Assembly (NCBI GenBank): GCA_947445525.1
Contig: CANFDS010000001.1
Coordinates: 1-64,000 of the forward strand
DNA from: Actinomycetota bacterium
Lineage (GTDB): Bacteria; Actinomycetota; Thermoleophilia; Gaiellales; Gaiellaceae
DNA: 64,000 bases
Direction of reading: 5' to 3'
Shown here in pieces: positions 28,247 through 31,062 of this stretch (the first letter of the stretch is position 1; each line of letters begins with the position of its first letter). The notes below the pieces were generated by a model. The model was not told where the DNA came from and did no database searches. It saw nothing but the letters and a program-made list of their open reading frames with translations. Both the position numbers and the translations under genes were made by a program.

Positions 28247-29956
28247 TCAGGGAGCGGTGCGGTTGTTGGCGACGAACGCCGCGTGCGTGACCGGCATGTG
28301 GTCGGCGAACAGCTCCTCGACCGCCTCGGCGAAGCGCCGGATCTCGCGCTGGGCGGCCTCGGCGTTGCGCAGCGACACGAAGTTCATCAGGGCCCGCGCG
28401 TTGACCGTCCAGTAGAACTCGGTGTAGATGCCGACCGGCAGCACGGCGCGGGCGACCTCGCGGGCGACGCCCTGCTCGACGAGGCGCTGGTACGTGCCGA
28501 AGGCTGCCGCGTAGGACGCCTCCAGCTCGGCGCGGGTGGAGGCGGCCAGCTCGGGCGCCACATGGTCGAAGGTGTACGCGCCCGGCTTGCCGACCTGGGT
28601 GCGCACGTCCTCGGCTGCAGGCACGTAGAACTCGTCCTTCGCCTCGGCGTAGCGCATCGAGAACTCGTTGAACGAGCCGATGCGGTGCCGGAACCACTCG
28701 CGCGCGACGAAGATCGGGCAGCGGACGTGGTAGCGGAAGGCGTTGTGCTCGAACGGCGTATTTCCCGAGAACGCGGCGTAGCCGTTGCGGCGCACGTAGA
28801 GGGTGCCGTTCGGCACCTCCACGCAGTGGATAGCGCCGTCGTAGCTCTCTATGCCCATGTGGTTGTCGGCATCCTGCCGCGTCCGGCAGAGCTCCGGCCG
28901 CGTGTTGCGCGGCGCGAAGATCGACACGCGCCAACGTGGTTTGCTGCCGAAATGCCCATCACCAGGCTCGAAGCGGTGCGGGCGCACCGAAGCGCTGCGG
29001 CCGAGCTTCAGCGCGAGCACCTGAACCGAGTCGGCAAGACGCCGGCTCGTTGTCGAGTAGGTGAGGCGATCGGCACGTCCAGGGCGCTCGAGCCGCGATC
29101 CATCCGACTCGATCAGCCCATGGAGCAGCTCTTCGAGGTGCTCGGGGGCAAGGGCGAGCAGGAGCCGCGGAACGACCTTCTCCTTCTCCACGTAGCACTG
29201 TGCGAAGACGCCGCGCAGCTCCGGCCCCACCGGCACGGCAAGCTGCTTCCCCCAGGCGCGGACTTCCAGTCCCAGCTCCCCGGCGGTTTCACGCAGGAAG
29301 GCGATCTCGCGCTCCTTGCGCAGGTTGAAGATGATGGAATTCGACGACGGCAGATTCCCATCGCCGATGAAGAAGCCAACGAGGCGGAGCAACTTCTGTG
29401 GCGCGAAGCGACGACCGTCGAAAACGAAATGGTCGAGCCGCTCGCCGTGCCACTCGGCGGTCGTGACATGCCGGTGCGGGCGCCACAGCACCGAGTGGGC
29501 CGGGCGGAGGGCGAACTGCGGCGAGGCGCGGCCATCCCGCGTTGTCGTCGATGCACAAAGCACGCGATGGTCGGGAGTGACGAGCATGTCGAGGCTCATC
29601 CCGTTGAACCCGATCATGTGGCCCTTGTACGGCTTGCGTACGAGTCGCAGCGCAGGCTGGTACTCGAGCTGCCCCGTGCGCGAACGTGTGGCGAACAGCT
29701 CCTCGCCCGTCACATCCGGCCACGACTTCCAGCCAACGTGCGTGAGAACGTCGGTCGCATCGTCGTAGCAGCCGTGTCGCTCGCGCATCAGGAAGCGCAC
29801 GAGCCCCGCGTCGGAGTCGTCCATCTCGGTCTTGCGGCGGGCGAAGCTGACACGCGCGGCATTCACCACCGAGAGGTCGTCGGCCAGGGCGCCGTCGAGG
29901 CGCACGAAGCCGTGATCGAGGACGGGGATGGAGCCATCGGTGGCACGCATAGTCAT
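28247..29956 (-). CDS. thyX: FAD-dependent thymidylate synthase ThyX containing an in-frame intein
   Basis: Extein motifs RERHG|TPFEHNAFRYHVRCPIFVAREWFRHRIGSFNEFSMRY (ThyX RHRxxSxNExSxRY-type motif) split by 337 aa. Confidence 0.95.
   Translation of the reverse strand: MTMRATDGSIPVLDHGFVRLDGALADDLSVVNAARVSFARRKTEMDDSDAGLVRFLMRERHGCYDDATDVLTHVGWKSWPDVTGEELFATRSRTGQLEYQPALRLVRKPYKGHMIGFNGMSLDMLVTPDHRVLCASTTTRDGRASPQFALRPAHSVLWRPHRHVTTAEWHGERLDHFVFDGRRFAPQKLLRLVGFFIGDGNLPSSNSIIFNLRKEREIAFLRETAGELGLEVRAWGKQLAVPVGPELRGVFAQCYVEKEKVVPRLLLALAPEHLEELLHGLIESDGSRLERPGRADRLTYSTTSRRLADSVQVLALKLGRSASVRPHRFEPGDGHFGSKPRWRVSIFAPRNTRPELCRTRQDADNHMGIESYDGAIHCVEVPNGTLYVRRNGYAAFSGNTPFEHNAFRYHVRCPIFVAREWFRHRIGSFNEFSMRYAEAKDEFYVPAAEDVRTQVGKPGAYTFDHVAPELAASTRAELEASYAAAFGTYQRLVEQGVAREVARAVLPVGIYTEFYWTVNARALMNFVSLRNAEAAQREIRRFAEAVEELFADHMPVTHAAFVANNRTAP
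28760..29770 (-). mobile_element. ThyX intein with LAGLIDADG (DOD) homing endonuclease domain
   Basis: Begins Cys (CYDDATDVLTHVGWKSW); block B-like MLVTPDHRVL; DOD motifs LLRLVGFFIGDGNL and LLHGLIESDGSRL; block F/G IHCVEVPNGTLYVRRNGYAAFSGN followed by Thr+1. Confidence 0.93.
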
Positions 29957-30118: not shown

Positions 30119-30442
30119 CTACGGCGAGGTGATGGCGTAGCTGACGGAGCCAGCGGTGTTGACACAGGAGTACCAGGTACCGGCCGCGACGAGCTGGGCC
30201 TTGACGGTGGTCGCGGTGGCCGGGCTGATCGTGAAGGTGACGGCATCGACATTCGTCGGCGTCGACGCGTTGAGGGTGTAGCCGACCGAGGTGACGGTGT
30301 AGCCGGAGACGGTGCCGGTGCCCTGGCCGGCCTGCGTGGTCGGCACGGTGTTCGACGCCGTGAAGGCGTACGAGCCACCGGCGACGACGGCGACCGCGGC
30401 GAGCGTTCGGATGAAACCCTTGAGACCGAGGAAGCTGAACAT
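30119..30442 (-). CDS. Small secreted protein of unknown function (signal-peptide-bearing, Thr/Val/Ala-rich)
   Basis: 107 aa; MFSFLGLKGFIRTLAAVAVVAGGSYAFTASNTVP signal/anchor followed by Thr/Ser-rich beta-like sequence; own terminator downstream. Confidence 0.6.
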   Translation of the reverse strand: MFSFLGLKGFIRTLAAVAVVAGGSYAFTASNTVPTTQAGQGTGTVSGYTVTSVGYTLNASTPTNVDAVTFTISPATATTVKAQLVAAGTWYSCVNTAGSVSYAITSP

Positions 30443-30504
30443 TGGGTTGCTAGCGACTCTCCCAGTGAGTGATGAGCGGTGAGCGTTGCTTGCACAGAGA
30501 GTTG

Positions 30505-30654
30505 TCGCACCGCCCTGTGTGACCACCGGTGCCGTTTCGTATGAGAACGGTACGGGCGGCCAGAATCACCCGAACGGGGGTTTCGCCGCAGGGACGGCAG
30601 GGTCGAGGGCGAATCCCTGACCGTTCCGAATCCAGCCAACAGGAGGCGGTTGCA
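30505..30654 (+). ncRNA. Structured 5' leader of mscL, candidate c-di-AMP (ydaO-yuaA class) riboswitch
   Basis: Closing stem 30507-30514/30645-30653; hairpin GTGCCGTT/AACGGTAC (30529-30536/30546-30553); AGGGCGAATC (30606-30615) and CCGAATCCAGCCAAC (30626-30640) resemble the remembered ydaO 3' core AGGGCGAA...CCGAAUCCGUCAGCUAAC. Confidence 0.5.
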
Positions 30655-31062
30655 GTGAAGATGGGCCAGAATTTCAAGGCGTTTCTGATACGCGGCAACA
30701 TGGTCGACCTTGCCATCGCGGTCGTCATCGGTGCCGCCTTCGGGGCAGTCGTGACCGCGCTGGTGAGCGACTTCATTACGCCGCTGATTGCAGCGATCGC
30801 CGGCAGCGCCGACTTCTCGGCACTCGACTTCAAGGTCAGTGGCAGCACGTTCAGGTACGGGCACTTCGTCAACGCCGTGATCTCGTTCGTGACGGTGGCG
30901 GCCGCCGTGTTCTTCTTCGTCATCGTGCCGCTCAACAAGCTGATGGCGCGGAGCCGCAAGGAGGCGCCGGCCGATCCGACCACGAAGAAGTGCACGGAGT
31001 GTCTGAGCGTCATCCCGCTCGAGGCGAGGCGCTGCATGTGCTGCACCAGCGTGCAGGCGTAG
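30655..31062 (+). CDS. mscL: Large-conductance mechanosensitive channel MscL with C-terminal Cys-pair tail
   Basis: FKAFLIRGNMVDLAIAVVIGAAFGAVVTALVSDFITPLI; SD AGGAGG 30641-30646 upstream of GTG 30655. Confidence 0.93.
   Translation: MKMGQNFKAFLIRGNMVDLAIAVVIGAAFGAVVTALVSDFITPLIAAIAGSADFSALDFKVSGSTFRYGHFVNAVISFVTVAAAVFFFVIVPLNKLMARSRKEAPADPTTKKCTECLSVIPLEARRCMCCTSVQA

Follow-up and report, generated by a model that had tools for sequence, protein, structure and literature searches.

A probable class 1 intein with a LAGLIDADG endonuclease domain in the thymidylate synthase ThyX of a Gaiellaceae bacterium

The interrupted thyX gene and the anatomy of its insert

The window analysed here is a stretch of 64,000 nucleotides (contig CANFDS010000001.1 of assembly GCA_947445525.1) from an actinobacterium of the family Gaiellaceae. 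On its reverse strand, positions 28247-29956 form a single open frame of 569 amino acids with an ATG start. The translated precursor matched the Pfam family Thy1 (1.6e-45) and the NCBIfam model thyX (2.1e-53), the latter in two separate stretches, and the ThyX of Thermotoga maritima (TmThyX) was likewise aligned as two blocks (query residues 10-61 and 399-562), the 337 residues of the insert being absent from it. The insert is in frame, follows ThyX residue 62 and occupies precursor residues 63-399 (Cys63 to Asn399), positions 28760-29770 of the reverse strand. It starts with CYDDATDVLT, contains the block B sequence VTPDHRVL and ends with YVRRNGYAAFSGN (C-terminus NGYAAFSGN), after which a Thr follows. 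The initial annotation had placed a 337-residue insertion between RERHG and TPFEHN, with a Ser-Gly-Asn end, Thr+1 and two LAGLIDADG motifs, and was exact on every one of these points. The features are the following, all on the reverse strand:

28247-29956, reverse: thyX precursor open reading frame, interrupted by the putative intein (Pfam Thy1, NCBIfam thyX)
29771-29956, reverse: N-extein, ThyX residues 1-62, ending RERHG (alignment with TmThyX)
28760-29770, reverse: putative intein, 337 residues, Cys1 to Asn337 (reading frame and comparison with relatives)
29768-29770, reverse: Cys1, predicted block A nucleophile, invariant in the 33 aligned relatives
29567-29578, reverse: block B, T65-P-D-H68 (TxxH); His invariant and Thr or Ser at T65 in the 33 relatives
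29351-29383, reverse: first LAGLIDADG motif, LVGFFIGDGNL, with acidic D137 (Asp or Glu in 33/33)
29090-29116, reverse: second LAGLIDADG motif, LIESDGSRL, with acidic D223 (32/33; Pfam LAGLIDADG_3)
28823-28825, reverse: Cys316, block F position 4 (F:4, assigned by alignment), invariant
28760-28795, reverse: block F/G end, VRRNGYAAFSGN, with invariant VRR, Gly336 and Asn337
28757-28759, reverse: Thr+1, first residue of the C-extein and predicted second nucleophile
28247-28759, reverse: C-extein, TPFEHN..., with the ThyX RHR motif RHRIGSFNEFS (alignment with TmThyX)

The site of insertion, just before TPFEH, belongs to a conserved part of ThyX close to the active site. As this part is interrupted in the unspliced precursor, the latter is, judged from the ThyX alignment, probably inactive. 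The similarity of the insert to other proteins is beyond chance: a phage thymidylate synthase was matched over the full length and four other genomes gave matches at E below 1e-166. Weak NCBIfam matches to intein-containing DnaB, RecA, GyrA and RNR models were also obtained over the endonuclease part. Beyond the gene, a small open reading frame (30119-30526, reverse strand) has a hydrophobic N-terminal stretch, looks like a secreted protein and gave no Pfam match, and an ordinary gene of an MscL mechanosensitive channel lies at 30529-31062 on the forward strand.

The conservation of the residues was judged on 33 aligned inteins, that is, the ThyX insert and its relatives. The insert carries the class 1 residues Cys1, C-terminal Asn337 and Thr+1 together with the block B TxxH (T65-P-D-H68), and both the TmThyX alignment and the uninterrupted alleles of the same genus identify it as an in-frame insertion in a conserved host protein. 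Val-Arg-Arg 326-328 is invariant across the alignment. The penultimate His, which is usual but not required in class 1, is absent, Gly336 standing in its place. Class 3 (WCT) inteins have no Cys or Ser at position 1 and carry Trp B:12, Cys F:4 and Thr G:5. This class was considered on account of the Cys at F:4 and was rejected, as Cys1 is present, Val70 is found two residues after His68 and G:5 is Ser335; Asp is the commonest residue at F:4 of inteins and Cys the second (PMC4031507).

As for the endonuclease, the Pfam family LAGLIDADG_3 was matched above its cut-off (5e-8) over precursor residues 276-327, and the two helices expected of a LAGLIDADG (DOD) enzyme were found with their acidic residues, D137 and D223. 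The AlphaFold2 model of the intein, for which the 33-intein alignment served as input, had a mean pLDDT of 93.4 and a pTM of 0.92. When this model was compared with the PDB by Foldseek, the best matches were the TliVMA intein (E 7e-17) and PI-SceI (1e-15), followed by other intein endonucleases, I-DmoI-type LAGLIDADG enzymes and a hedgehog Hint domain; the model thus has the Hint fold, and the sequence profile search agreed with Foldseek on relatives of the VMA type. The insert is therefore predicted to fold as an intein with a LAGLIDADG endonuclease, closest within the PDB to the VMA inteins.

Class residues, motifs and predicted fold all agree with the earlier description of the ThyX insert as a full-length intein bearing a DOD (LAGLIDADG) homing endonuclease, and they place it in class 1. 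A dead insertion due to mutated blocks, which the same description had allowed for, was not borne out, the residues of blocks A, B, F and G not being degenerate. Judged by its residues, the insert would be an ordinary class 1 intein and is probably active.

Empty alleles, relatives and distribution

Uninterrupted thyX genes were found in two genomes of the same genus (G001 and G002), so that intein-free alleles, with which a comparison had been proposed, do exist close to the host. Their junctions read RERHG/SPFEHN and RERHG/TPFEHN, with zero bases gained or lost. The extein is 90% identical to the thyX of G002 and 84% identical to the other, and in the extein tree it groups with these two at 99/99 support, which indicates that the gene belongs to the host lineage and that there is no obvious binning error. 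The source genome is a draft (93% complete) with 8.28% contamination and the intein lineage is rich in phages, so that a contaminating or prophage-borne thyX, binned into this genome together with an intein from another organism, had to be weighed. However, besides the identity and grouping of the extein, the examined neighbours of thyX are ordinary cellular genes (an ECF sigma factor, MscL and an epimerase) and the interrupted thyX is the only Thy1 match of the genome. A foreign origin by misbinning is largely refuted by these data, and we regard it as barely credible.

Among annotated sequences, gp22 of Corynebacterium phage P1201 (YP_001468924.1) comes closest: a thymidylate synthase to which the insert was aligned from end to end (31.7% identity, E 1e-36), and the record of which already carries the note 'contains hypothetical intein'. 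Its junctions, ILRQKHH/CYSS...VWSGN/SVLEH, correspond to those of the window, HH/SVLEH being homologous to HG/TPFEH; the intein of the window is thus an allele of the P1201 type, with the same site and a homologous intein. An uncultured phage (L059) has a ThyX intein of the form GHG/CYDD...VWSGN/SVLEH, and related inteins are found in further ThyX-like phage proteins at this site or one residue from it (GHWG/C...CGN/CLEHP). The viral scan gave no match with a single protein as query, while the alignment-based viral scan did. The ThyX inteins of this spot stand together on the intein tree, although the fork between the bacterial clade and P1201 with L059 is weak (85/63), and many further relatives occur in other phage and archaeal proteins. 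The insert in the 'putative thymidylate synthase' of Escherichia phage 18-1-2 is related but was not accepted as the same allele, its host sequence context being different.

Several observations concern other sites and hosts. Inteins of the same lineage as that of the window occupy a third ThyX site, NVSRV(C/F)/THEL(I/V)RHR (L042-L045, L157-L159 and phage L078), in Nocardiopsis, Actinocorallia, Thermoleophilaceae and a phage. A different ThyX intein is found in two members of the same family (L034 of G003 and L033 of G010) at the RHR motif (RHRAGH/SYNEWSGRY); it has an HNH-like CxxC...LDHV...CxxC segment and a VVHN end, and is similar to the insert that mycobacteriophage ZygoTaiga has at this RHR-motif site of its ThyX. 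Two Desulfobacterales sequences (L046 and L057) showed several separate intein-like matches within one open frame, which suggests multiple inteins of the lineage.

Inteins at the same ThyX site were detected in 5 of the 129 genomes of the order, namely that of the window, G023, G018, G096 and G059. All five are open, without stops, share 62-68% of their amino acids and form one clade in the intein tree (100/100). On the extein tree they are distributed patchily, which takes 4 changes (no fewer than 3 of them imposed by well-supported branches), and the intein of G096 also has an empty thyX relative within its own genus (G004). Recent lateral transfer among the five hosts was considered but is not supported: in every pair the inteins are less identical (62-68%) than the exteins (76-86%), so that nothing points to an exchange in the very recent past. 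The distribution would be compatible with ancient acquisitions, with vertical inheritance and subsequent losses, or with a combination of the two. The endonuclease had pN/pS values of 0.34-0.46 and the splicing part values of 0.23-0.33; the synonymous sites being near saturation, they are only a rough guide, yet they are low in both parts, so that both appear to be kept under selection.

The possibility that thyX is essential had been raised in the initial annotation, together with a check for thyA. Neither ThyA (PF00303) nor thymidine kinase (PF00265) was found in the source genome (a draft, 93% complete, with 8% contamination), and in the 41 genomes searched, its own included, ThyX was present in 34 and ThyA in 1. 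Thus thyX is probably essential, in which case the intein must splice, and splicing is probably needed for growth, as far as gene content can indicate; an incomplete draft may, however, have missed a thyA or tdk. G020, a single-contig genome of the same family, has ThyA and no ThyX, which suggests replacement of the synthase type within the family.

These results also bear on a dead or decaying insertion, in which the endonuclease or the splicing domain would be non-functional and dTMP would come from another source. The faster evolution of the endonuclease and the chance that the draft misses a thyA would be in keeping with such decay, but the frame is intact, the two LAGLIDADG motifs keep their acidic residues, no class 1 nucleophile is missing, pN/pS is well below 1, no ThyA or thymidine kinase was found, and failure of splicing is expected to be lethal. 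We therefore consider decay very improbable.

The penultimate glycine and asparagine cyclization

From the Gly-Asn end the initial annotation had concluded that this particular allele must splice by an atypical chemistry or slowly. This was not upheld. The relatives were brought in by collection scans with N-terminal patterns only, so that the C-terminus was not selected for, and among 86 distinct C-termini (83 parsed, and L116, L117 and L090 read by eye) the penultimate residue was Gly in 85 and Ser in 1. The near fixation of Gly across the relatives makes it a trait of the lineage and not a lesion of the window's allele. Class 1 inteins of mycobacteriophages are often without the penultimate His (PMC5050341), class 1 inteins lacking it do splice (PMC5050341, PMC7664689), and the literature accepts that missing histidines can be compensated for (PMC7664689). 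In the Bethlehem RDF intein, which has a penultimate Gly, splicing was complete at time zero, while its Gly-to-His mutant needed more than 5 h to become about 50% spliced (PMC5050341).

The second histidine that assists Asn cyclization, that of block F, is absent as well: F:13 of the ThyX intein is Tyr, and His was found at this position in 0 of the 83 parsed C-termini. Slow or conditional splicing might then put a post-translational brake on the synthesis of dTMP, for instance through a redox switch of Cys1 and Cys316. Besides the absence of both histidines, the two invariant cysteines, the place of ThyX as a metabolic control point and the effect of the penultimate residue on the splicing rate of the RDF intein (PMC5050341) speak for such a brake. 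In that intein, however, it is Gly that is fast and His that is slow; the same end is found in a nucleotidyltransferase, a radical SAM protein and other unrelated hosts without shared regulation, and no sign of conditionality was seen in this analysis. A regulatory brake thus seems unlikely to us.

We would rather suggest, tentatively and as something that may well turn out otherwise, that the inteins with Cys1, Cys F:4, VRR(N)G and Gly-Asn represent a distinct, phage-spread class 1 lineage which cyclizes Asn without either histidine, perhaps by means of the conserved arginines or the flexibility of the Gly main chain. Histidine-free Asn cyclization would be a step without mechanistic description so far, and the lineage, whose members lack the two histidines to which this reaction is usually credited, offers a ready test set for it.

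Proposed splicing and homing, and comparison with known inteins

The insert is very probably a class 1 intein with a LAGLIDADG endonuclease, which would splice to give active ThyX and home into empty alleles. This reading is based on the anatomy, the predicted fold, the empty sites, the relatives at the same site, the scattered distribution and purifying selection. The precursor would be translated whole, Cys1 would attack the carbonyl of the preceding Gly (N-S acyl shift), Thr+1 would take over the N-extein, cyclization of Asn337 would release the intein, and an O-N shift would join RERHG to TPFEHN, yielding active ThyX. Intein-free thyX would probably be cut by the freed endonuclease at its conserved RHG/TPFEH codons, whereupon repair would copy the intein into the cut allele. 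The finding adds, within one actinobacterial family, a small clade of thyX inteins that are probably chromosomal. As intein-free sister alleles exist and phages carry homologues at the identical residue, this clade lends itself to tracing how inteins are gained by, and lost from, a gene that is probably essential.

ThyX inteins had been noted beforehand as a known kind, which examples from phages, Streptomyces and Trichodesmium confirm, and the intein of the window is one more example of this kind of mobile element. The PHROG thymidylate synthase profile phrog_85 already includes intein positions. Kelley et al. (2016, PMC5050341) described inteins in the thymidylate synthase (TdS) of mycobacteriophages and Streptomyces and presented evidence that such inteins are transferred horizontally; like ours, these inteins reside in the flavin-dependent enzyme, in phage and actinobacterial hosts. 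They were considered as occupants of the window's site, but the ZygoTaiga intein sits elsewhere (RHRSGF/SYNE), and differs further in its HNH-like endonuclease sequence and HN end. The ThyX intein of Trichodesmium erythraeum (Ter ThyX), which as a mini-intein splices to about 100% in E. coli (PMC3620165), is likened to the intein of the window by its host protein. The Bethlehem RDF intein (gp51) shares the penultimate Gly, a trait compared by its published description, and lies in another host protein. The VMA inteins TliVMA (7qsu) and PI-SceI (1vde) are the closest solved structures, having, as predicted for the ThyX insert, a Hint fold with an embedded LAGLIDADG endonuclease, but they are only 12-17% identical in structural alignments and belong to another host gene. 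The P1201 intein has the same host gene, insertion point and architecture and a similar ...VRRNGKPVWSGN end, and differs in its identity of only 32-35%, its phage host protein and its Ser in place of Thr at +1. The ThyX inteins of G023 (palsa_612), G018 (MGR_bin198), G096 (CK_bin.5) and G059 are inserted at the same residue in hosts of the same family, although these belong to other genera and the inteins are known from raw, unannotated sequence.
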